A DNA stretch of 62,453 nt from a candidate division WOR-1 bacterium RIFOXYB2_FULL_36_35 (lineage in GTDB: Bacteria > Margulisbacteria > WOR-1 > XYC2-FULL-46-14 > XYC2-FULL-37-10), in the NCBI GenBank assembly GCA_001771505.1, contig MEUA01000033.1, forward strand, positions 1-62,453. Reading direction: 5' to 3'. The notes beneath the pieces were generated by a model, which had not been told where the DNA came from, did not search any database, and saw only the letters and a program-made list of their open reading frames with translations. Below, one piece after another: positions 45,236 to 62,453 of this stretch (positions are counted from its first letter, which is position 1; every line of letters begins with the position of its first letter). The position numbers and the translations under genes were made by a program.

Positions 45236-45380
45236 GAGACTGTTGCATAATGGTCATTCCCGTGAAAACGGGAATCTATTTCTCAGAAAACAACCCCGAT
45301 TATAATAATCGGGGTTAAGATGGATCCCCCGCTTTTGCGGGGATGACAAATTGCAAAAACTATTATTACACAACAAGCCC
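45236..45380. mobile_element. GGGACTGTTGC-family MITE, 145 bp, carrying the palindrome
   Basis: Ends GAGACTGTTGC and (T)TGCACAACAAGCCC-like right arm, flanked by ATTAT (45231-45235 and 45381-45385). Interior palindrome at about 45292-45317. Very similar to the 34553 copy. A half palindrome (TACCCCGATTAT) sits at its left border. Confidence 0.9.
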
Positions 45381-48730: not shown

Positions 48731-48758
48731 TTAACCTCGATTAGGATAATCGGGGTTA
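48731..48758. repeat. AACCCCGATTA palindrome
   Basis: TTAACCTCGATTAGGATAATCGGGGTTAA, cited by its arms TTAACCTCGATTA and TAATCGGGGTTAA. It forms the stop codon of the convergent coiled-coil gene. Confidence 0.85.
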
Positions 48759-49172
48759 ATGAACAGGAAGGCTTATATGATGGATTAACACTTCTTTGAC
48801 TTCATCAATTTTATTGCTTAAATTTGTTTCAACTCTATCCATTTTTTGATCTAGTCCATCCATTCTTCGATCTAGTCCATCTAGTCTTATTTCAACGCCA
48901 TCGATTCTTTTGGATAGTTTTTGATCAACATCATCTATTTTATTAGTTAATCTTATTTCAACATCATCAATTTTATTATTTAATGCTTTGATTGCGAAGC
49001 TATTTGCTTTTATAGCGAGGCTATTTGATTCAATTTTTTCCATCAATCTATCTTCTGTGTTTTTAAGGTCGCTTTTTGTAACATAGTCCTTTTTAAGTAT
49101 GAGATTGATCTTGGAGTTGATATCTTCCAGTATAATTTCAAAATGTTCTTTTTTTAGTTTTTCTTTCGGCAT
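48756..49172 (-). CDS. coiled-coil protein of unknown function
   Basis: 138 residues, mostly one long heptad-repeat helix (KIDDVEIRLTNKIDDVDQKLS, KRIDGVEIRLDGLDRRMDG, in several near-copies of 7-14 residues). The pattern resembles the t-SNARE-like DUF of many bacterial hypothetical proteins that end in an oligomerising rod. No partner is evident. The TAA stop lies at the edge of a palindromic repeat, so the ending HHISLPVH may not be original. Confidence 0.8.
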   Translation of the reverse strand: MPKEKLKKEHFEIILEDINSKINLILKKDYVTKSDLKNTEDRLMEKIESNSLAIKANSFAIKALNNKIDDVEIRLTNKIDDVDQKLSKRIDGVEIRLDGLDRRMDGLDQKMDRVETNLSNKIDEVKEVLIHHISLPVH

Positions 49173-49722: not shown

Positions 49723-49823
49723 AATGCAAGTTTTTTAGATTTGATTACGATAATACAAACGAGAGAAAAACTAAGTAGCGCCAGATTGTAAATCGCCTGT
49801 TATTTAGAATTTGGTTATAGAAT

Positions 49824-49860
49824 AGACAAGAATGTTTTGACAGGCTTGTCTTTGTTTTTA
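49824..49860 (+). terminator. terminator-shaped hairpin in the leader of the 1089-residue gene
   Basis: AGACAAG (49824-49830), 14-nt loop, CTTGTCT (49845-49851), then TTTGTTTTTA. GGAGG starts 2 nt after this T-rich tail. Since no plus-strand gene lies upstream, it may act as an attenuator. Confidence 0.65.
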
Positions 49861-49872
49861 TGGAGGTAAATT

Positions 49873-52800
49873 ATGTCAAATCCGTCAGGCCCGATTTCTG
49901 TGAAAATAGATTCTTCAAAAACTTCTTCTATACATGATGGATCTACTCAAGGATTAGTAACAGGGCTTGTTAATCTTGCTAAACTTGGTTTAATTGTCGT
50001 AATTTCAGGCACAGAGATCTCTATAGGATCTGATGGTGTTGATACTCCCGCTGAAAGACAAAAGATTATAAATGCGCTGGAAACGTATTGCAGGGACAAC
50101 AGATTATCAGGTCAAGCTAAAAAAGATTTTTATTCTAAAATTGCGGGTAACTTGAAATTTATTTCAGAAGCACTCAGCAATAATCCTGAAAGCAAATATA
50201 ATCTTGAAGTAGTGCAACGCGCTTTAAAAGATACAAAAATATCGATTGATTATATTGCAAAAGTAGATACAACGAAGGAGGCAGATTCTTTTATTGAAAT
50301 ACTTATTGAAGGAAAAAAATGGACACCTAAGCAATTTGAAAAAACAATTATTGACGCGTTAAATAAAATTGACCTGGGGAGTGGCGCTACGATAGAGTCA
50401 ATAACTTCAAATGATGCATATAAGGCTCTAAAAGATACTGATGTCTCTGGGTTGTGGCAAGGGACAGAAAGAATAATTTATGATGCAAAGAAAAAAGTTG
50501 AAGGGTTGGAGTTAGCAGCAAAAACAAAAGCTGCGCAAGAAGAGATTCAAAAGAAAGAGGCAAAAAAGACCGCTTTTTCTGATCATGTTAAAAATGATCC
50601 GGATTTGACTACTATTAATGAAAGATTAGGATCTGACGGCAAAATAGGGGGGCAAGATTATACCGTGGCAGAGATAAGTGAATATCTTCAGATTTCAGAT
50701 AATAAAACTGTTCTTCGTGACAAAGTTTTGGCCGCTGTAAAGGCAAATCCTTCAATATTAACATCGCTAAATAATCTTGCTCCCCTGGTTTTGGACTCAG
50801 GGGAGGTTTTAGTTGCGTTTAGTGATAAAGGGAAAAACTATGCTTTTGTTATAAAAAAAGAAACGGGTAGTTGGACAGGTTTGCCGGAAGGATATGTTGC
50901 AAAAGATGGAACTGATAGCAAACCAGTCATATATAGATCGGGAAAAACACTTAGCAAAGGGTTAAATCGTATTGCCAGAGCGTTGACTCCTGATTCAAAA
51001 GAAGAAAAATTGTTAGGATCTTATCCAGACCATCGCATTTTAGCTACTGTTGTAATGGGAAGTTCTTCTGGTTCTACGGGTGCTACCGTGGGATTGACTT
51101 CTTCATCTTCTTCATCTGATCCGTCTATCCCTGCCGAATATTTTAGAGATTATTCAAAAAGTGGCAAAACACTTTGGGTATGGAGGGATGTTGATAGAGA
51201 CGAAAAAATTGACAAGGGGGAGGAACAGCATAGTTTAACCGTTTATGTAAGGGGGAGAGATGGAAGCTGGATAAAAATAGAGACCGGATTAAATGATGTA
51301 AACTTTGACCTTTCAGACGCAAAGATGAACGCGGAAGCTTCATCTGTTGAAAGAGATGGCGAGATAGACAGTGGGGAGAGGGATGAGAGGGAGAGGATGA
51401 TTCTTGAGTATGCAGGTTACTACGGAATTTCATACGAAAAGGGATCGGAGGCCTTTGCCAAAGCGACTTCATTCTTTATGGTTTCGCGAAAAGCGTTGCG
51501 TGAGGCAAGGGGCGAAATTGTAGTTAAATCTTCTGAACTTGTAGGATTATCTGCGGAGGATGCACGAAAAAAACTTGAAGCTCTTAAACTCTATCATAAA
51601 GATATAATTGATGTGGTTATAAAATCATGGGATGAGATTAAAGATAGCGCGGATAGAATAGCGGGAAAGATACTCTCTTGTTTTGCCGCCAAAAAGACGG
51701 GGCTTTATGACATATTCGAAATAAATAGAGACGATCTCAAAAATATGATCCCTTATAATAATGAGATATACACTAAAGAGAAATTGCTGGAATATTTGAG
51801 GGGGGGAGAGGTTACAAAGAGTGGGGAGGGGAAGAAGCCGGAAGAGAAAAACGCTATGGATAAGAATATACGTTCTGTTAGAATGGCTTTGGCTCAGCGT
51901 GATTATGATCAGGCTACAGATAACTTAATTAGTATTTTATCACAATTGAGGGAAAATAAATCGGAGAAGGTTTCTATTCCGCTTGGAGATAAAGAGATAC
52001 CTGAGTGTTCATGGCGTTTTGCTTATGGTTATTTTCTTGAACAATTTTTGTATGCAGAAGAGGGCGGTAAAATAGATTTCAGTTCTTTGGCTCCAGAAAG
52101 AAAAACAAAATTAATAGCTGAGTTGGATAGCTATTTAACAGAGCCATCCTCCTTTATTACTTCTGAAGGAAAGACAAATCTGGATTTAGTTAAGCAAAAA
52201 ATTAGGATTGTATTGCTTGTCGCCGGATGGAAAAAAGATGGAAAAGAAGATCCTAGTGCAATTCAGACGTTTATCGATAGACATCTCTCCAGCGTATGGT
52301 CTTTGCCTATCTGGGCAGGACACGAAAAAGAAAGAGGGAGCCTTGCTAAACAGCTTGCAGAGTTTAAGGCGGGGCTTTTTATTTCTAAAAAAGGAGATAA
52401 CTTTGAGGTTGCCAGCGGGTTAAATATAGAGCGGGAGCTTGAAGTAATAGTTGAAAATTGGGGAGAGACATTTGTTGCTTCATTCAAAACTCAGGAGGGT
52501 GATCAACAATCAATGAATACCACTATTGGTCTATCAATATCCACTCAAATTTCTCTTGCTAATGGTAAATTAACAGGCGAAAGTCCGACGCCTCCTTCTC
52601 AGGACGATGCTGTTGCAGCTTATATTGCTCAAGGATTGTATGGCAATGAATCAAGAGGAGCTACAATAAAACAAAAAGATGGAGATAAACTTTTCACTGA
52701 TACAAAAGAGTCGCAAGATGAGAATTATAAGGCGGTTTTTGAGCCTGGGGAGAAGAAACCATCCAAGCCGAAAAAAGGTAATGGAAAGGGCGCTGTAAAA

Positions 52801-53142
52801 GATGGGAAAGACAATAAGAAAGGAAAAACAGGTGCGGAGAAAGCTGGGGAATCACCATCACTTCCTGGTGTTCCACCAACCGAAGAAAAAAAGGAGGAAG
52901 TAGCCAAGGAGGCAGTACCCACAACCATTACGTTGTCGAATAATATTAGTGCAATATGTACTTTGCGTGGGGATAAGATTACCGCGAAAATTGGAAATAA
53001 CGAACGAGTTGTGGCAAAGAAAAAAGGAGATAAATGGGTAAGTGATTTTCATAGATATGGTCTTGGGCTAGGAGAAAATTTTAGAATAGAATTAGAAAAT
53101 GCGATAAACTCACAATTTGGAATTACGATTGACTGGAAGTAG
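49873..53142 (+). CDS. large protein of unknown function with paired EF-hand-like loops
   Basis: 1089 residues, no signal peptide and no membrane segment. GGAGG lies 6 nt before the ATG. The first part is mostly helical and Lys/Glu-rich. DVDRDEKIDKGE (439-450) is an exact EF-hand loop in acidic positions 1, 3, 5, 9 and 12, and SVERDGEIDSGE (491-502) is a second, weaker one. Both would bind Ca2+ if folded. A Ser-rich linker around 395-418 and a charged Lys-Gly-Glu-Pro linker near 955-1020 separate helical regions from a C-terminal domain (about 1020-1089). No family recognised. It is followed by the giant SecA-like gene. Confidence 0.9.
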   Translation: MSNPSGPISVKIDSSKTSSIHDGSTQGLVTGLVNLAKLGLIVVISGTEISIGSDGVDTPAERQKIINALETYCRDNRLSGQAKKDFYSKIAGNLKFISEALSNNPESKYNLEVVQRALKDTKISIDYIAKVDTTKEADSFIEILIEGKKWTPKQFEKTIIDALNKIDLGSGATIESITSNDAYKALKDTDVSGLWQGTERIIYDAKKKVEGLELAAKTKAAQEEIQKKEAKKTAFSDHVKNDPDLTTINERLGSDGKIGGQDYTVAEISEYLQISDNKTVLRDKVLAAVKANPSILTSLNNLAPLVLDSGEVLVAFSDKGKNYAFVIKKETGSWTGLPEGYVAKDGTDSKPVIYRSGKTLSKGLNRIARALTPDSKEEKLLGSYPDHRILATVVMGSSSGSTGATVGLTSSSSSSDPSIPAEYFRDYSKSGKTLWVWRDVDRDEKIDKGEEQHSLTVYVRGRDGSWIKIETGLNDVNFDLSDAKMNAEASSVERDGEIDSGERDERERMILEYAGYYGISYEKGSEAFAKATSFFMVSRKALREARGEIVVKSSELVGLSAEDARKKLEALKLYHKDIIDVVIKSWDEIKDSADRIAGKILSCFAAKKTGLYDIFEINRDDLKNMIPYNNEIYTKEKLLEYLRGGEVTKSGEGKKPEEKNAMDKNIRSVRMALAQRDYDQATDNLISILSQLRENKSEKVSIPLGDKEIPECSWRFAYGYFLEQFLYAEEGGKIDFSSLAPERKTKLIAELDSYLTEPSSFITSEGKTNLDLVKQKIRIVLLVAGWKKDGKEDPSAIQTFIDRHLSSVWSLPIWAGHEKERGSLAKQLAEFKAGLFISKKGDNFEVASGLNIERELEVIVENWGETFVASFKTQEGDQQSMNTTIGLSISTQISLANGKLTGESPTPPSQDDAVAAYIAQGLYGNESRGATIKQKDGDKLFTDTKESQDENYKAVFEPGEKKPSKPKKGNGKGAVKDGKDNKKGKTGAEKAGESPSLPGVPPTEEKKEEVAKEAVPTTITLSNNISAICTLRGDKITAKIGNNERVVAKKKGDKWVSDFHRYGLGLGENFRIELENAINSQFGITIDWK

Positions 53143-53177: not shown

Positions 53178-53322
53178 CTAAAAAATCCATTTTTTTGACA
53201 TTTTCGCGCAAGTTTTTAGGCTCTAAAACCGATTATATCAGTGTAGAAACCAGATAAAGAGACCTTTTTTTCGGATTGCCTGTTTCTGAAAATAAAGGGT
53301 AAGATTATTATTTTTTGGGTTT

Positions 53323-53352
53323 AAAGCTCGCAAATTAACAGGCGAGCTTTTT
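53323..53352 (+). terminator. strong hairpin with T-tract in the leader of the giant gene
   Basis: AAAGCTCGC (53323-53331), 10-nt loop, GCGAGCTTT (53342-53350), then TTGTTTTATA. It could terminate the upstream transcript or act as an attenuator. It ends about 12 nt before the GGAG of the giant gene. Confidence 0.75.
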
Positions 53353-53373
53353 GTTTTATAAGCGGAGAAAAAT

Positions 53374-56300
53374 ATGAGCGAAGCCGGAAAAATAGAAGGA
53401 CAACAAGGTGTAGTACAAAAGAGTGTTGACGACACACTTTTAAATCTTGCCAGTTTACTTGTAAATCCTCTATCTGAGTATGGGATAGATCTTTTTTCAA
53501 GGGATGATATTTTAGATGATATAAAACAATTTTTTTCTGGTGAAGGGATAGCAATTACAAAAGCTTCTGTTGAAAACTACATAAAATGGTTAATTGCGAA
53601 TAGAGATAAATTTGAGATTATAAAAAGACTAAAGAATGATTTCGGTGTTGATTTATATGTCAGTAACAATGGAGTAAAATCTCTTAAATCTACGCTAGAA
53701 CAACTTGATCGGTTTCTTTCTAATGTTTTTGGCGATAAAAAACCCTCAAAAGATGATGTTGATATCCTTTTTTCCCGCTATGAAAATTTTCAAAAGGGAT
53801 TGAGAGTCTATTCGTATCTTCCTCCGGCGGAAGAAGCCCCCTCTTCATTGACAGACCAGGATAAGCAATCTATGCGTGAAAGGGCCTCCAGCTTGATTCC
53901 TTTCGGTCTCGATTTTTTTAGCGAATCAGACAGTGATGAAGTTATAATTTCCAGAATTTACGGATTTATGCGGAGCATGGGGGTGGAAGAGGTAGAAAGT
54001 TTTGATAAATTTGTGAGTTTTCTAAAAAATTTAAAGAGTGGAAATGCTGATGAACAGGCAGAGGCATTGAAGCTCCTTTTTCAAGCCAAGGTCGACTCCA
54101 AAGAATCACCTAGTTTTATAACCGCGGCGTGGAAAAAAGGATCGGAGGTTACAAATCTTGAGCTTTTGGGAGAAAAAATATCTCAAGGCTATAATCTTTT
54201 AGTCTTTCAGAAAGAGGACAAGAGCAATGTATACTTTTGGATCTCTTCCGGTGGGGAGATTTCCGCCTTAACGAAAGATGAAAAGGACATTCTTGAGAAG
54301 AGTAGTTTAACCCCTCTTTTGCAGAAAGGGATATTTACAAGAGAAAATGATCCTCTTTCAAGTTATATATCAATTAAAAAGGCCGGATTAGAGACTGTTT
54401 TGGCTTATCAGGCGCTTATAAACGGGGTTAAGCCAGAGACCATAAGAGGATTGCAGACACTAAAGACCGAAGGGCATACCATAAAAGAGATTATGAAGCA
54501 GTTGGAAGAACTCGCGAAAAAGGTCTCTGATTCGGTTGATGTCGCAAACAGGGCAGCGACTCCCGCAAAAGAGGCTATAGAGGCATATCAGAAAGCTAAT
54601 AAAGAATTAAATGAAATTTTTAGCCAGAGGGGAAGAATTGATGGCAGGCAATTTGCAAGCAAACTTGCTGAATCTACCAGAATTAGAAGAGAAGCGCTTG
54701 AGAAAAGGGATAAGGCTATAGAAGCTGAGAACAGGGCAAAAGGAAATCAAAAAGGTTATTTGAAGGAGATAGAAAATCTTTGCGAGAGACTTGGGGTTGA
54801 AAAAGAAGAACTGGAAGACAACAAGCTTTTAGGTTTTTTGCAGGCGCTTGATGATTCGGACAGCTTTGCCGCAGATGTCGATCTTTTATCTGTTGCAAAC
54901 AGGGTTTACGGGCTTGGAAAAAAATCTGGAATTTCTGTTGATGAATCGGGTTCTCTGGTAGCAGTTGTCGACAGAGATGTTTTTGCAGCAATACTCCCTC
55001 AAAAAACTTCAGCCTCTGATAAATTGAAAAAGGCTGAAAGGGATGGGATGAAAGGGGTCTCCCTTTCAAACCCCCAGATATTAAAAGATTTTCCTATAAT
55101 TTTAATAAAGGCGACTCTTTTGGGAGTTGAGGGCGATCCTTATTTGGATAGAGTCGATCTTTCGACAGAAAGACTTTCATCTCAAGAACTTGGGTGTGTT
55201 GCTGATCTTTTTTCTCCGAAATACAGCGTCTCTTCACTTGCCTTTTCTGATGATGAAGGGCTAAATCAGAATCTGGCTGATAACTTAATACAGGAACAGA
55301 TCAGAAATGCTCCGGATGAAAAGACAAAAAAAATCTTTGTAAAGCTTTTAGCCTGTTTAAAGTCAGATGACAAGACCTCTTTTTCCGCGGATGAATTAAA
55401 TTTATTAAGAGATTTTTTAATCGCTTTAATAAAAGACGATAAGGACTCAGATGCTACCCATAACCCCCTATTAGGAAATCGGGGTAAAGAGATATGGACG
55501 ACCCTTTATGATAAGGTTTTTACCGATACGGGTTTTTCTTTCAGGGTGGTTTGTGGCAGAGGGGGGTTGAGCGCCGAAGACAGAGAGAGACTCCTTGTTT
55601 TTACCGAAGATTATCCGACTTTTGAATTTACTACATTTGATCCCGAAGAGAACGACACAATAGAGATTATTAGAGTAAAAAGTATTTTGAGAACTATTGC
55701 TAAACAACTCAGTTTTTATGTGGGAAAAGATAAGGTTGAACTTCCTAAAAGTCTTGATGATGTGAGGGGGGTTATCGGGGGGATTGTGAGCGCGCTTGAT
55801 GGCGTAATGCAGCAGATAAGGGATGCCGGAAAAATTACACAAGAGATTGAATTGCCTCAGGGGGTTGAAGAGCACCTCTGGTCTCTATATGTGTGGGATC
55901 ATTTGGATGAGCCTGTAAGAGAAAGCTATCGAGAAGTTGTAGAAAGATTAAGGGTTTATAAAAATGATTTTGACCAAGCTGTTAAAGAGATAGAAGCAAA
56001 ATCTAAAGAGATAGAAAAAAAATCAGAAGAGCTTGAGGCGGCTGAGAAAAACAATTCGGGCGTTCCAGCCAAAGACAAAGAAAAGCTTAGGAATGAATTA
56101 AAAAGTTTGAAAGATGACTTTAAACAGTTGCAGGATGCCGCAAAAGAGATAAAAAAATTGTTGCAAAAAAAGCAAGATTCTTTAATGGAGATATCCTGGA
56201 AAAACGGTTTGGACGGGAGGATTTCAAGCGAGAATGTTGGGATCATTTTAAGAGAGGCCGCGGAAGACGGAATCTTAGCTCAGCTTATCCCCGCTTTGCC

Positions 56301-59300
56301 GGCCTTGATGGTTGACCAGGATGATATGCGTTTAAACAGTGTTAGAGGGATAGACAGTCTCTCTGAGCTTGAGGCATTTGTTTTGGAGAAAATAGGCGTA
56401 GACGGCTGGGATTCTCTTATAAGGGATCCCGGAGAGAATATAGAAATTTCTATAGCAAAGAAGATTGTTTCTATATTACTTTCTCAGAAATATTTTAATA
56501 AGATAAGACAGGGAAATTCTGTCTTATCCGTTTTTTCTGTTCTCCCCCTTGTAAATACTGCTCGAACAGCGATCATGACGACTGTCGGATTTGCCAGTGT
56601 GGGTGTAGACGGATGGACAGAAGGGAGCGCCCCTAAAGATACGGTAACTTTTCCTCCGTATTTTTATAACACAATACTTTTAAAACAGTTGACGACTTTA
56701 ACTCAGACCCTTCAGGCCGAACCTAATACAAACATTGCCCCATATGTCCACTTATTGTTAATTCAGCTTGGAATTAAAGACCAGTTCTATTTTTACGATC
56801 TGATAATGAGCGACGGGATGGGTAAGGTGACTTTTGAAGAGGTTAAGATGCTTGTTGAAGGACTGGTAAAACAGATAAACGGGTTTTCGCAGAATACGGA
56901 CATATTGAAATTAATAGAGGGAAAACTTCCAGGTTATTTAAGGGACGGACTCTGGAAGGAACTTAGGGGCGCTGATCCTTGGGGGGCTATTTTTAAACCT
57001 GAAGGAGACAGTAAAACAGGGTTTGAACTTTACTTAAGTGATAAATTTGGAGAGAAGGTTTTCGAACTTATTAAACTCTGTTTTTCTATTTTGGAGGCCG
57101 AGTCGGACTTTCTCTCTCCGTCTCTTAAAACGACATCGGGGGGACATATAGGGGCTCAGGAGATAGACAGAAGCCTGAAAAACGGCATTGTCTTCAGGCC
57201 TAACCCTTCACAGGGATTTATTGCCAGATCGATTGATACTGCGGTTGATATATATTCAACTCCTGAGGTTGGTTCTCTAGTGCTTGGAAGCGCTTCAGAA
57301 GTTTTGCGTTCAGGATTGGATGCTACTACGGGATTTATAAGCGGATCGATTGATACTGCGGTTGATATATATTCAACTCCTGAGGTTGGTTCTCTGGCGC
57401 TTGGAAGCGCTTCGGAAGTTTTGGATGCTATCCCATCATTCTGGGATGGTGTAAAGTTTGCCGGGAATTTCTTCTATGGGATGACAGACACAGCTTTGAC
57501 TTTCTGGTCCATGCCTCCTACATTCTTTCAATTAGGAGCCCAGTACACAAAAGATATTGTGGAGGGGATATTGGAAGTTAAGAGGACGGGGGATTGGTCA
57601 AAGCTTCTTGAAGCCGGAAAATCTTATGTCGGATTAGTAGGCGGGGTTATTACATGGATGACTTATCCCGTTGAATATTTTGAAGAGGGGATGCAGATGT
57701 GGAGGGAGGCTAACGCTGCTGAAGAGGAGGGGAATGATGACGAGGCATCTAAATTAAGAGCGAGGGCTTTAGGTTCGTTTTTAGCTATGGCAGGTTTTTC
57801 GCTGCAGGTATTGAGGATGCACCTCTACAGGGTAAATGAGATTCGAAACTTTTTAATGTGCAGACCGACTATGTTGAGGGAGCCAGGCGGTATATTTGCC
57901 TGGCCTCTGCGCGCAACAGAAGAGTTGTTGCTTCGCCCTGCCAGATTCGGAATTGACCTTGCATGGTCGCCGGCCAGGAGGCAGTATGGTGAGGGTTGGT
58001 TCTGGGGGAGTTTGAGGAGTGGTCTTGAGGGTTTTGATTCAGGGATAGAGGGGATTTCTTCTTCAAGGGCAGGAGTTTCCAGATGGTTTGGAGACAAATT
58101 TTCCTTTAACCCTTCCTCTAAAAACAGGACTTCTATGCAATGGTTAGGTGGAGCAAAGACTCTTGTCTGGGATTGGTATTATAAAGATTTTGTAAGTCTT
58201 GAAGCTCAGAGCAGCTATCTCTCTCTTGGAAATAGGTTCTCTGTTTCAGGTTTTAACGCAGGCGAATATATGGAATTGATGCGGATGCTTGATACTGCCA
58301 GTTTAGAGTTGGATGGCTTGAGTATCAAGGATAGGATGAAAAAAGCCAGTTTTATGAAGAGTCATAATATAAAACCTATGGACATATCGTTATCTCAAGG
58401 GACTTTATTGACACTTGAACAGGGGCCGGACGGTAAGTTTGTTTATGTGGATGGGGATCCTCTTGTCTTTGCAAATAGAGATAAAAACTTAAGAAAAAAT
58501 TTACCTAAAACAGTGACTGTGCCGATAGATGGAATTGACGGCGCAACTCAAGAGATGCCTGTAGGGGAAATTAAAGTTGTAGCTGGAAATACCACAGAAA
58601 TTAGAATTTACCGGGGGGCTTTAGAAGTTGAATATGCCTCTCTGATTGTCGGTGAGGATCTTTTAAAAACAGATAGGCCTGTTGATTTTTCAGCTCCTAT
58701 TGGAAGATTAGGGAAAGCTATGGGAAGTATCAGTAGTATTCCTGATCCGGCGCCTCCTGAACCTATATATACACCTGACGAGAGGGTTGAAAAAGTTCGA
58801 AATGTAAGAGAGCGTGTCAAAACTATCGATTTAATTTGGGGAAGATATGACAATAAAGAGATAACAAGGGCTGATTTGGAAGGGGCTATGAGAGAGGGGC
58901 TTAAAACGGTGAGTTTTGAGGGACTTTCATTGGAAGATCAGATTAGATTAATGGACGAAACTGAAGTAGAAATTAAAGGGGGAACATACAAATTGGCTGA
59001 AGTCCGTTTGGCATGGGTAAGGACGCTTTTTAAAGAGATAAAAGGGATAACCTTGAGTACTCCTCAGATTGAAGCTATTTTGTTGATGCATAATCGCATT
59101 TCGGCCCAAATACAGACGGGGCAGGGGAAGACATTTATCCGTTGCGCTCTTGATGTTTTGGATCATGTTTTCGGAAGGAAGCTGTTCTCATTGACACATA
59201 CAGATTTGACTGCGGAGGCTGACTTTAAAAGCAATATTGAAATTTATAGAGCGGCGGGAATGAAAGTTAAATTTGTCCGCCATACTGATGCGGGACTTGC

Positions 59301-62300
59301 TACAACTTTTAGAGATAACGACGTTATCTATACATCTGTAAATGATCTTGCTTTTATAGATCTTAACGGGTTGGTCTCTCCTGAAAAAGTGGTTGATATA
59401 CCGTGGGAAGAAGGACTTTTTAGAGTTGATGAGTTTGACTTTATATATGTTGATGAAGGATTGACCCCATACGTGATGTCGGGTGGTGAGAAAGAGAAGG
59501 CTCAGGTTAAAGCGTGGCGTAAAGCAAATGAGACCGCAAAAAAACTGATAAAACTAAATAAAGCAGGCAGATCTATCTTTAGTATTAGAAACGGGGAAGG
59601 AGCTGTTTTAAATCCTGAGGCTGTATCTCAACGCCTATTTTTGGATGAAAAGGGGAATACTGTTTCCTGGAATGAACTTTCACTTGCTCAACGAAAAAGA
59701 ATCTCTCAGTGCCTCGTTGCCTACAAGATGAAACCTGGCGAAGGGTATGAAATCAACCAGCTTACAAAAGATATTGTCCTTCTGGATGAAAAGACAGGTC
59801 AGGCAAAATACGGTTCGCAATATAGCGACGGACTTCAACAGGCTCTTCAGGCAAAACACGAAGGGAAAATAACGGGAACCCGTATAACCCCTGAAAATTC
59901 TACTATTGCCCAGGTTATGGCAAGGACACTAGTCAGAAGGATAAGAAATATGGTTGCCTCCTCAGGGACGTTGGATCAGATTAGCGCGGTTCTTGATCAG
60001 ATGGGGATAGCTTATGAAAGAGTTCCAACTAATATAGTTACATACAAATGGCAAGCATTAACTCCAGAAGAAAAAGCAAGAGTTGAAGAGGCCGCAAGAA
60101 TGGGAGGTAACGACGCGATCGAAGCTGTTTCAGAGGCAACATTAGAGAAGAATTTAACAGCTATAAAAGAAGAAGTGGAGGCTAAAAGGGGCGAATCTGT
60201 TCAAATTTTTGATAGGACCGAACCTGGGTTCAGAGATGTTCAGATTATAACATCCTCTGATTCCACTGGATCGGCTATTAGCAGAGCAGTTTTACGGCTT
60301 AAGGGAGCGGGGATAATAGCTACTAAGTTTATTCAACATGAGCCTGTAATGAATTTTGTGGCGGAAGTTAGCGCTGGGAAAGCTCCAAACTTAACCTTAA
60401 TCCGTGAGAAAAAAATAGAGACAATCTTTATCCAAATGGAGATGGATCTGGAGAGGGGGAGACCGATTGTTGTCGGAGCTGATAGCCCAAAACTTGCTGA
60501 AGCTATTTATGGCTGCCTTGAAGGTAAATCAAAAAAATATATAAGTGATCCTGAAATATTAAAAAGGATAGAGGCTGTTGCCGCAAGAATAAGAGATGCA
60601 AAAAGAAGCGGGAGCCATTTTGGAAAGGTGAGAGTCGGCCTTTTGGCTCAGGGAGATGAGCACAAGTATCTTGATATTTTTGAGAGGCCTTTGGAGGAGA
60701 ATTTTGACGTCTTAGTCACCACACTTGCGAGACGCGCGACCGATTTTAAATCAGAAAAACCTATAATTTTATATCTTGCCGATCAGGAGGTCGGGAGTTG
60801 GGGACATTGGCAGAAGGTTGGAAGAGTTGGTAGGCAGGGGACCGAAGCCATCTTAAGAATTTTTACATCTCCTGACAGTGGTTTGTATGGCACAAGATTG
60901 TGTAATTTTAATTTTGAGGCGGTAAGCTTTGATACTTCTGTTTTGGGTGAAATTAGAAACAGACTTTCGAACGTAGTTGATAGAGCAGGGAACTCTGTTT
61001 CACTTGCTGGAATAAATGAATTCTCTACTTTTAGGGATGTCTTCCTGCTGTTAAACAATGTTGATATTTCAGAAATCGATGGGTTTGCGGCGTGGTTCTT
61101 TGGAGAGGCGCAGAAGGCTTTTGATCGTGAGCTTATAAATATGTGGAAGAACGGGATAAAAGCAGAGAATCTTCTTCCTCAGGACATTCGCAATCAGCTT
61201 GAAGCTTTGAGGGAGACATTTGGTTCAAACGGAAGAAAACCTGGCAGATCGGAATTTGAGAAGAAGAGTTCAGCTGGAGATGTCTACAGAAGTAAGATTT
61301 TTAACAGTGTAAAGAGACAGTGTGAAACAGTGGTGGAGCAAGAGGTTGAGTTTTTATGGGGAAGGCTTAAAGGAGAGGGGAGTAGTATTATAGATCTTGC
61401 TCATGATAGAGCGACACTTTCAGCTGTCATTCGCACTCTTGCGAAAAAATTTAACGTAAAGATTGTTATCGATCTGCCGACTGCAGAGAACTTTGATTTA
61501 CATGGTTTTGCTTCGAGTCTTGCAAGGGAGATTACTGGCAGACTTTTTGATTATAAGAAGATGCAGCTCAGAAATTTGAGCGGTGTTTTGGGGAACGCCT
61601 ATGTCATGTTTCAGGAAGCGGCATTTGAGGCCGGAGTTGAGCTTGCGGCCAAATATGAATCGAGGAGCAAACTTGTTAAGACCTCTGAAAGCGAAACAGA
61701 TGTAAGGAAGATTTATGAAGCTGAATATAGAGAAAAAATCGATAATCTGCTGGAGAGATTCAGGTCGCAGATAATTGAGGGGACAAAGAAGTTAAGAAAG
61801 ATTGAGTCTGTTCCGGTTGTCGGTAGATATGGAATTGTGCGACACAGGTTTAAAGAAGAGATAAGGGTAGATGTTGGCTCTCTCTTGCATGGAGTTTCCA
61901 CGGCTCCTGAACCTTTAAGGCCGTCTGATCCTTCTCCGGAACCTTCCGAAACAGGAGAGCCTCGTATTGTTGAATCCCGTGCTCCTGAACCTAAAATTAT
62001 TGCGCCTCATGTAAGGGACGCGGCTCCGGCAATAGAAGGATTTAATATTGAAAGAGAGCTTAAAGCTTCAGGTTTATTGAGCGAAGATGCCAGCACGAGG
62101 GATGCTTTTAAAGGGACGACCGAAGAGTTTCAAAGGGCGTTTTTGGACAGAGTTGAAAGACGGGCTTTTAAAATTGAATTTAAAGAATATATCTCTTTTG
62201 CAGGACTTGAAGAGAGTGCGCTAAGAGCGATAGTTGGAAATACGTCCTCCAGATTAGTTTTTTATGGTGGAGTAAATGACTATCATGAACCTGTAATATA

Positions 62301-62453
62301 TTGCGCTGACTTTTCTAGAAGAAATGTCTCTGAGAGTATAATAAATTTGGGGCCTAACGGCTTTGTGCGAAGAGAGGAATTGACACTTCCTACTCCTGTG
62401 CCTTCTCCTACATCTTCTCTTGCGCCTTCTCCTAGACCTCAAATAGTTTTTAC
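53374..62453 (+). CDS. giant protein with embedded SecA-like ATPase core (3' end outside window)
   Basis: At least 3026 codons with no stop. GGAG lies 6 nt before the ATG. No signal peptide. Residues 1-1850 are mostly helical and unrecognised, with a coiled coil at about 855-940 and a Gly/Ala-rich, mildly hydrophobic region at about 1270-1440 that contains a 39-residue tandem duplication. At about 1890-2600 the order and spacing of SecA motifs are seen: TPQIEAILLMHNR, Walker A QTGQGKT (T1915-T1920), YTSVNDLAFIDL, Walker B YVDEGLTPYVMSGG (D2027 E2028), a PPXD-like block LLDEKTGQAKYGSQ/YSDGLQQALQAK (2150-2161) with ITPENST, and motif VI GRVGRQG (2483-2489). Pro/Ser-rich linkers follow (about 2845-2880 and the last 30 residues). 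The ATPase core is clear; the rest and the function are unknown. It is not a replacement SecA, which would be about 850-950 residues. Confidence 0.88.
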   Translation, partial: MSEAGKIEGQQGVVQKSVDDTLLNLASLLVNPLSEYGIDLFSRDDILDDIKQFFSGEGIAITKASVENYIKWLIANRDKFEIIKRLKNDFGVDLYVSNNGVKSLKSTLEQLDRFLSNVFGDKKPSKDDVDILFSRYENFQKGLRVYSYLPPAEEAPSSLTDQDKQSMRERASSLIPFGLDFFSESDSDEVIISRIYGFMRSMGVEEVESFDKFVSFLKNLKSGNADEQAEALKLLFQAKVDSKESPSFITAAWKKGSEVTNLELLGEKISQGYNLLVFQKEDKSNVYFWISSGGEISALTKDEKDILEKSSLTPLLQKGIFTRENDPLSSYISIKKAGLETVLAYQALINGVKPETIRGLQTLKTEGHTIKEIMKQLEELAKKVSDSVDVANRAATPAKEAIEAYQKANKELNEIFSQRGRIDGRQFASKLAESTRIRREALEKRDKAIEAENRAKGNQKGYLKEIENLCERLGVEKEELEDNKLLGFLQALDDSDSFAADVDLLSVANRVYGLGKKSGISVDESGSLVAVVDRDVFAAILPQKTSASDKLKKAERDGMKGVSLSNPQILKDFPIILIKATLLGVEGDPYLDRVDLSTERLSSQELGCVADLFSPKYSVSSLAFSDDEGLNQNLADNLIQEQIRNAPDEKTKKIFVKLLACLKSDDKTSFSADELNLLRDFLIALIKDDKDSDATHNPLLGNRGKEIWTTLYDKVFTDTGFSFRVVCGRGGLSAEDRERLLVFTEDYPTFEFTTFDPEENDTIEIIRVKSILRTIAKQLSFYVGKDKVELPKSLDDVRGVIGGIVSALDGVMQQIRDAGKITQEIELPQGVEEHLWSLYVWDHLDEPVRESYREVVERLRVYKNDFDQAVKEIEAKSKEIEKKSEELEAAEKNNSGVPAKDKEKLRNELKSLKDDFKQLQDAAKEIKKLLQKKQDSLMEISWKNGLDGRISSENVGIILREAAEDGILAQLIPALPALMVDQDDMRLNSVRGIDSLSELEAFVLEKIGVDGWDSLIRDPGENIEISIAKKIVSILLSQKYFNKIRQGNSVLSVFSVLPLVNTARTAIMTTVGFASVGVDGWTEGSAPKDTVTFPPYFYNTILLKQLTTLTQTLQAEPNTNIAPYVHLLLIQLGIKDQFYFYDLIMSDGMGKVTFEEVKMLVEGLVKQINGFSQNTDILKLIEGKLPGYLRDGLWKELRGADPWGAIFKPEGDSKTGFELYLSDKFGEKVFELIKLCFSILEAESDFLSPSLKTTSGGHIGAQEIDRSLKNGIVFRPNPSQGFIARSIDTAVDIYSTPEVGSLVLGSASEVLRSGLDATTGFISGSIDTAVDIYSTPEVGSLALGSASEVLDAIPSFWDGVKFAGNFFYGMTDTALTFWSMPPTFFQLGAQYTKDIVEGILEVKRTGDWSKLLEAGKSYVGLVGGVITWMTYPVEYFEEGMQMWREANAAEEEGNDDEASKLRARALGSFLAMAGFSLQVLRMHLYRVNEIRNFLMCRPTMLREPGGIFAWPLRATEELLLRPARFGIDLAWSPARRQYGEGWFWGSLRSGLEGFDSGIEGISSSRAGVSRWFGDKFSFNPSSKNRTSMQWLGGAKTLVWDWYYKDFVSLEAQSSYLSLGNRFSVSGFNAGEYMELMRMLDTASLELDGLSIKDRMKKASFMKSHNIKPMDISLSQGTLLTLEQGPDGKFVYVDGDPLVFANRDKNLRKNLPKTVTVPIDGIDGATQEMPVGEIKVVAGNTTEIRIYRGALEVEYASLIVGEDLLKTDRPVDFSAPIGRLGKAMGSISSIPDPAPPEPIYTPDERVEKVRNVRERVKTIDLIWGRYDNKEITRADLEGAMREGLKTVSFEGLSLEDQIRLMDETEVEIKGGTYKLAEVRLAWVRTLFKEIKGITLSTPQIEAILLMHNRISAQIQTGQGKTFIRCALDVLDHVFGRKLFSLTHTDLTAEADFKSNIEIYRAAGMKVKFVRHTDAGLATTFRDNDVIYTSVNDLAFIDLNGLVSPEKVVDIPWEEGLFRVDEFDFIYVDEGLTPYVMSGGEKEKAQVKAWRKANETAKKLIKLNKAGRSIFSIRNGEGAVLNPEAVSQRLFLDEKGNTVSWNELSLAQRKRISQCLVAYKMKPGEGYEINQLTKDIVLLDEKTGQAKYGSQYSDGLQQALQAKHEGKITGTRITPENSTIAQVMARTLVRRIRNMVASSGTLDQISAVLDQMGIAYERVPTNIVTYKWQALTPEEKARVEEAARMGGNDAIEAVSEATLEKNLTAIKEEVEAKRGESVQIFDRTEPGFRDVQIITSSDSTGSAISRAVLRLKGAGIIATKFIQHEPVMNFVAEVSAGKAPNLTLIREKKIETIFIQMEMDLERGRPIVVGADSPKLAEAIYGCLEGKSKKYISDPEILKRIEAVAARIRDAKRSGSHFGKVRVGLLAQGDEHKYLDIFERPLEENFDVLVTTLARRATDFKSEKPIILYLADQEVGSWGHWQKVGRVGRQGTEAILRIFTSPDSGLYGTRLCNFNFEAVSFDTSVLGEIRNRLSNVVDRAGNSVSLAGINEFSTFRDVFLLLNNVDISEIDGFAAWFFGEAQKAFDRELINMWKNGIKAENLLPQDIRNQLEALRETFGSNGRKPGRSEFEKKSSAGDVYRSKIFNSVKRQCETVVEQEVEFLWGRLKGEGSSIIDLAHDRATLSAVIRTLAKKFNVKIVIDLPTAENFDLHGFASSLAREITGRLFDYKKMQLRNLSGVLGNAYVMFQEAAFEAGVELAAKYESRSKLVKTSESETDVRKIYEAEYREKIDNLLERFRSQIIEGTKKLRKIESVPVVGRYGIVRHRFKEEIRVDVGSLLHGVSTAPEPLRPSDPSPEPSETGEPRIVESRAPEPKIIAPHVRDAAPAIEGFNIERELKASGLLSEDASTRDAFKGTTEEFQRAFLDRVERRAFKIEFKEYISFAGLEESALRAIVGNTSSRLVFYGGVNDYHEPVIYCADFSRRNVSESIINLGPNGFVRREELTLPTPVPSPTSSLAPSPRPQIVF
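55458..55486 (+). repeat. palindromic element inside the giant reading frame
   Basis: AACCCCCTATTAGGAAATCGGGGTAA, cited by arms AACCCCCTATT and AAATCGGGG, lies in frame and is translated as HNPLLGNRGK at about residues 701-710. Only one base of the left arm differs from the intergenic copies. Confidence 0.85.
57227..57424 (+). repeat. 117-bp tandem duplication within the giant gene
   Basis: GATCGATTGATACTGCGGTT starts at 57227 and again at 57344. About 80 bp of each unit is nearly identical at the DNA level (three differences seen), encoding IDTAVDIYSTPEVGSL...GSASEVL twice, 39 codons apart. Confidence 0.9.

Follow-up and report, generated by a model that had tools for sequence, protein, structure and literature searches.

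The DNA analysed here (the window) is the whole of contig MEUA01000033.1 (62,453 nucleotides, nt), from a candidate division WOR-1 bacterium. At its 3′ end is the gene for a giant protein that carries a SecA-derived motor in its interior. At the level of sequence, the comparisons below establish the descent of this motor from SecA, its intact ATPase motifs and reduced PPXD, the linkage of the giant to a partner gene across the order, the promoter shared by the two genes, and a leader with two alternative folds. Genomes of the phylum are labeled G, their contigs C, and individual loci L; the window is G000:C33, in an assembly of 1.95 Mb in 67 contigs.

The giant protein and its SecA-derived motor

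The frame of the giant contains 3026 codons without a stop, and it is terminated by the end of the contig rather than by a stop codon. The last 200 bases of the contig have no overlap with other contigs of the assembly, and the missing 3′ piece was not found in the assembly either with the C-terminus of a relative or with a profile of the C-terminal module. The homologues in G004 and G001 align along the length of the giant, with roughly 20–60% identity per 100-residue block and lower values in the last 200 residues. The giant of G007 has about 8–40% identity per block, and that of G066 matches across its fragment. As full-length homologues exist in G004 and G001, a spurious frame is excluded. 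The frame of at least 3026 codons described in the original prediction is thus upheld along its whole length, and sequence comparison confirms it as a real gene. An assembly chimera was considered and ruled out, as the composition has no break.

The motor spans residues ~1890–2550 (Table 1). NBD1 contains the Q motif, Walker A, DExD and motif III, and NBD2 contains motif V (RRATD, residues 2453–2457) and motif VI (GRVGRQG, residues 2483–2489), both read on the sequence; these are the features of the SecA family. PF21090 is above its cut-off in G041. All residues of the DEAD motor are kept, and they are near-invariant over 14 giants and 14 SecAs. The motifs named in the original prediction (TGQGKT, SDGLQQALQAK and GRVGRQG) are present on the sequence, with SDGLQQALQAK at residues ~2147–2157. 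However, the block that had been taken for Walker B, YVDEGLTPYVMSGG at residues 2025–2038, is the next SecA signature ('LIDEARTPLIISG'), and the true Walker B is VDEFD. The PPXD is the substrate clamp of SecA. The PPXD-like block noted earlier stands as a remnant, with a score of 26.8 bits in the relative G042, above the cut-off of 23.5, but not at full strength, as the window giant remains below this cut-off.

Several searches identify the motor. The window giant is matched by Pfam SecA_DEAD with an expectation value (E) of 2.2e-19, by NCBIfam SecA (E 4.9e-23), and by SecA chains of the PDB in a sequence search (E 7e-17). The closest single solved chain to the motor is C. difficile SecA2. A profile of five giants aligns with ordinary SecAs with a probability (P) of 100 and an E of 2.9e-40, placing 613 columns onto positions 123–804 of the 938 in SecA. 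An AlphaFold model based on five giants only has low confidence (predicted local distance difference test, pLDDT, of 58) and was used for fold ranking only; its 33 best fold matches in the PDB are all SecA. A deeper model, based on 14 giants and 14 SecAs, has a pLDDT of 74 and a predicted TM-score (pTM) of 0.66. Its 36 best matches are again all SecA, and its best TM-scores (0.66–0.68) are to SecY-engaged forms, although the alignment includes true SecAs and the model is supporting rather than independent evidence. SecA ranks far above helicases in the fold searches. The profile search and the structure prediction that the original prediction had called for therefore both return SecA, and by its sequence the motor is a descendant of SecA and not of a generic helicase, as had been proposed.

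The ordinary SecA of this genome, the suggested object of comparison, is encoded separately at G000:C54. The giant is therefore not the housekeeping copy. It scores 81 bits against the 814 cut-off of the housekeeping family NF009538, and 51 bits against the 930 cut-off of the SecA2 family TIGR03714. A further SecA-like match, at G000:C23, was rejected since its sequence reads as a RecG-like frame. When compared with SecAs of other phyla, the ordinary SecA does not group with the single sequences of Omnitrophota, Elusimicrobiota, FCPU426 and Desantis; it falls, without a firm placement, near those of Melainabacteria and Clostridia.

No known domain was recognized in the flanks of the motor. Strong transmembrane segments are few in the giants by a simple hydropathy scan. 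No second confident Pfam family was found in the window giant or the scanned relatives, and no adhesin domains appeared in the Pfam scans of the giants. Scans of the window giant with Pfam and NCBIfam, and of the relatives with Pfam, gave no toxin family, so that the giant does not qualify as a polymorphic toxin, which would have a recognizable toxin domain and an immunity gene. The profile of the N-terminal flank matches only G000, G001, G004 and G007. A search of this flank against the PDB gave only coiled-coil chance matches, and an assignment of the giant to a defence system, which had only such matches, was dropped.

Table 1. Positions of the features at the giant locus (nt of the window; residues are those of the giant)
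Feature	Position	Strand	Observation
Sigma28-like promoter of partner	49725..49755	+	TGCAAGTTTTTT-N-CGATAATA; sequence, found independently as repeat D9
Switch-like leader of partner	49795..49851	+	Two possible folds, pairing of GCCTGTTA with TGACAGGC or hairpin AGACAAG/CTTGTCT then T-run; cmsearch match, sequence part of model
Partner gene, 1089 amino acids (aa)	49873..53142	+	Open reading frame; homologous to genes upstream of relatives' giants
Sigma28-like promoter of giant	53207..53237	+	CGCAAGTTTTT-N-CCGATTATA; sequence, also repeat search
Switch-like leader of giant	53278..53357	+	GCCTGTT can pair with AACAGGC in loop of terminator-like hairpin AAAGCTCGC/GCGAGCTTT, then T-run
Giant protein gene, at least 3026 aa	53374..62451	+	Open reading frame, ATG start, 3′ part beyond contig end
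N-terminal flank, residues 390–1420	54541..57633	+	Conserved between giants (alignment A2), mainly helical/coiled coil, without known domain
SecA NBD1, first part, residues 1872–2058	58987..59547	+	Pfam SecA_DEAD 1872–2202; tested by itself, E 4.8e-16 to the profile of canonical SecA
Walker A, TGQGKT, 1915–1920	59116..59133	+	Near-invariant across giants and canonical SecA
Walker B/DEAD box, VDEFD, 2018–2022	59425..59439	+	Aligns with SecA VDEVD
Shortened PPXD and exit, residues 2059–2160	59548..59853	+	SecA_PP_bind 2106–2158, 20.8 bits (cut-off 23.5); second half alone E 1.6e-5
Motif III, SSGT ~2196–2199 (SGT 2197–2199)	59962..59970	+	G358 of alignment A6 invariant
NBD2 motifs V and VI (R2454..D2457; Q2480..R2484, R2487)	60733..60834	+	Near-invariant columns; NBD1b+NBD2 E 4.3e-20
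Helical region colinear with SecA HSD/HWD, ~2590–2850	61141..61923	+	Inside profile-profile alignment and SecA-like AlphaFold model; alone E 0.049, not significant

Promoter, leader and partner gene

The partner and the giant are preceded by the same elements in the same order: TGCAAGTTTT, 17 nt from GCAAG to CGAT, GCCTGTTA, a hairpin with AACAGG in its loop, and a T-run that is followed by the ribosome site and the start codon. The leader is predicted to have two competing folds, a terminator-like hairpin and the pairing of GCCTGTTA with TAACAGGC (anti-terminator). The arms of the hairpin vary in all ten leader sequences and yet stay complementary. The leader model was built on ten sequences, using sequence only, and gives the giant's leader 73.7 bits in cmsearch, with this sequence itself built into the model. 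It has matches in all nine genomes of the order, including G001 and G003, which were not used in building it, and also in G059. The conserved leader is located at 49725–49871 and 53207–53373 in the window, and also at L028, L023, L025, L134, L154, L156, L137 and L160. No Rfam family matches the leader, which is a candidate for a new cis-regulatory RNA.

The promoter resembles that of late genes controlled by sigma28 (FliA). The E. coli sigma28 consensus is TAAAGTTT-N11-GCCGATAA, with a spacing of 16 by the GCAAG-to-CGAT count used here. The window genome has the genes fliN-fliP-fliQ-fliR-flhB-flhA, which are most similar to flagellar models; a gene for a FliA/WhiG-like sigma factor comes next. 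The shared sigma28-like promoter and the sigma gene beside flhA are the observed signs of a possible co-regulation with the export apparatus. In comparison with the flagellar late genes of sigma28, the putative targets here include unknown proteins that are not recognized flagellins, and an extra switch-like leader is present. A sigma54 promoter was also considered and rejected, its matches being at chance level.

In G000, G004, G007 and G008, only the promoter half is found at the head of a syntenic gene cluster, whose products are unknown proteins with no evident signal peptide and are candidate substrates for flagellar-type export. In this cluster (L207, at G000:C17:64832-79992, and L218, L219 and L217), mostly Pfam-less proteins lie under a promoter of the partner/giant type. 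Proteins of 1373–1731 aa, with hydrophobic stretches that look translocator-like by eye, are among them.

The 1089-residue neighbour, earlier suggested to act with the giant, is a real partner: its homologues are located just upstream of the giants of relatives, and it has the same promoter and leader as the giant. No known domain was found in it with Pfam, NCBIfam or PHROG, and no signal peptide is evident on reading its sequence. It matches the gene directly upstream of the giant in G006 (48% over 270 aa) and in G004 (33% over 149 aa). Within the order (the window and G003–G008), the upstream genes are connected to one another by homology, and that of G059 is connected to them through G008. 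The genes upstream of the giants in G037, G040, G042 and G047 have no match to the partners. G036, G037, G041, G042, G047 and G050 share a different conserved gene, located on the downstream side of the giant.

Distribution and modularity of the giants

The search of related genomes that had been proposed earlier finds motor-bearing giants in eight of the nine genomes of the window's order and in at least nine further genomes of the 74-genome phylum. With a broadened motor profile, very long frames with the motor were found in G002, G005, G006 and G008 of the order, and others of this kind outside it in G059, G066, G036, G037, G040, G041, G042, G047 and G050, the motor match of G037 being weak. 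The complete frames of the relatives are mostly 3.9–7.2 thousand aa (the longest are 4390–7197 aa), and the giant of G004 has 3927 aa. Several giants match one another outside the motor too. The catalytic residues are near-invariant, whereas the flanks diverge fast.

The SecA-like frames of G010 and G027 are shorter or partial. One of them (G010:C90, L172:1562-4459, 966 aa) has an alignment that covers NBD1 and NBD2 and passes over the PPXD columns. When the motor alignment was searched against wider genome contigs, ordinary SecA was the only kind of protein among the matches listed. Searches of viral contigs, phages and plasmids returned no giant among the matches listed, only SecA-like matches with ~23–28% identity, and there were no giants among the frames measured at 36 loci from the wider genome-contig and viral scans.

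A Ser/Thr protein kinase of G002 (G002:C113, L137:8610-12566) carries the giants' C-terminal module as a fusion, behind the same leader as the giants. Together with a giant that has no motor (see below), this suggests from sequence that the giants are modular and effector-like.

Possible roles of the giant

The most likely reading, to which we give about even odds, is that the giant is a modular effector under sigma28 control and uses its SecA-type motor to thread polypeptide. The two-gene locus would encode the partner and a giant with a central SecA-derived motor, separate from the ordinary SecA. Both would be late sigma28-controlled products, made alongside a flagellar-type type III apparatus that would probably export them. 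The SecA motor of this scaffold would hydrolyse ATP and thread an unfolded polypeptide through a membrane or out of a complex, the polypeptide being either a flank of the giant itself or the partner. The biology of SecA suggests the ATP-driven threading, while promoter sharing and the export genes suggest synthesis, and perhaps export, with the apparatus. More tentatively, there may be a recurring effector system of this phylum, in which a flagellar sigma factor and a new switch-like leader RNA control the synthesis of the giants. These would exit through the flagellar-type type III apparatus, each with its own SecA motor to move polypeptide in a recipient.

Several observations weigh against the effector proposal. 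The PPXD, which would clamp the substrate, is shortened in the window giant. The promoter spacing is 17 nt, one base longer than the 16 of E. coli sigma28, and the sigma gene, with a score of 71.6, does not reach the FliA_WhiG cut-off of 189.6. FHIPEP is present in 66 of the 74 genomes of the phylum, so the distribution of the apparatus does not follow that of the giants, and being nearly universal it proves nothing by itself. Finally, the G003 locus (L210/L211, G003:C4:99487-112137) combines the partner and the leader with a giant of 4217 aa that has no SecA motor. The motor is therefore a usual but not an obligatory module.

The same motor could instead remain in the producing cell as an accessory secretion motor. 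The giant would then be a SecA2-like paralogue whose huge flanks act as adaptors, and it would drive the partner or co-regulated proteins out through SecYEG or a flagellar-type gate. This is a possibility of rather low probability. It is in agreement with the SecA architecture, the TM-scores to SecY-engaged SecA, the proximity to C. difficile SecA2 and the conserved partner adjoining the giant, but it would not be expected from fast-diverging flanks without a known domain, a C-terminal module found on a kinase too, the motor-less giant of G003, or a partner without a signal peptide on reading its sequence. A cytosolic ATP-driven remodeller, a helicase-like giant that reuses an old SecA core on RNA, the nucleoid or large assemblies, is unlikely. 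Helicases share the DEAD core, and strong transmembrane segments are few, but features found only in SecA are retained (the PPXD remnant, the LIDEARTPLIISG-type signature and the SDGLHQA block), SecA is far above helicases in the fold searches, and the promoter sharing is linked to export. It is highly improbable that the motor is a decaying SecA duplicate, embedded without present function in a giant protein of structural or surface type. Other uncultivated phyla do have giant proteins whose role is unknown (PMC10066038), and the motor is missing in G003. However, the catalytic residues are near-invariant while the flanks diverge, there are no adhesin domains, and transmembrane segments are few.

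The motor is similar to SecA and SecA2 (PF07517, PF01043, PF21090) in the NBD1-PPXD-NBD2 order, all the DEAD motifs, the signature sequences and the fold. It differs from them in being an 800-aa motor within more than 3000 aa, with a shortened PPXD, an insert between NBD1 and NBD2, an HSD/HWD match that is not significant alone, another promoter and partner, and a separate ordinary SecA. SecA is known mainly as the housekeeping motor of the Sec pathway or as SecA2 copies. A SecA core with intact motifs inside proteins several times its size, beside a normal SecA and in many genomes of one phylum, would widen the known uses of this motor. The sigma28-like promoter, leader and partner provide an entry point to many unknown and possibly exported proteins of bacteria not yet grown.

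By description, the giants have a parallel in the giant secreted toxins of actinobacteria, which have an embedded SecA-like ATPase domain proposed to aid their own secretion (PMC8195603). These toxins carry HTH, ART, peptidase, GT4 and MFS domains, whereas the giants scanned here have no confident second Pfam family. SecA-like helicase-related domains have also been reported in Amoebophilus effectors (PMC3482391), likened here by description to the giants in having such a domain as an effector module, though in a different phylum and with different delivery. The giant open reading frames of Omnitrophota (PMC10066038) are similarly very long, from small genomes of uncultivated bacteria, and of unknown function; those reported have many transmembrane helices or adhesin domains, and SecA is unmentioned there.

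Other features were observed near the giant loci. By eye, HEPN/MNT-like (HepT/MntA-type) gene pairs are located beside them in G004 (L029:329-1047) and G006 (L213, G006:C17:69355-70067). Genes for AAA_14/DUF4143-type ATPases are nearby in G008 (L156:3618-4928, confirmed by Pfam) and G004 (L028:11702-15838, by eye). In the window, a short palindromic repeat, AACCCCGATTATAATAATCGGGGTTAA (D8), is found between genes at 45292–45318 and 48733–48759.
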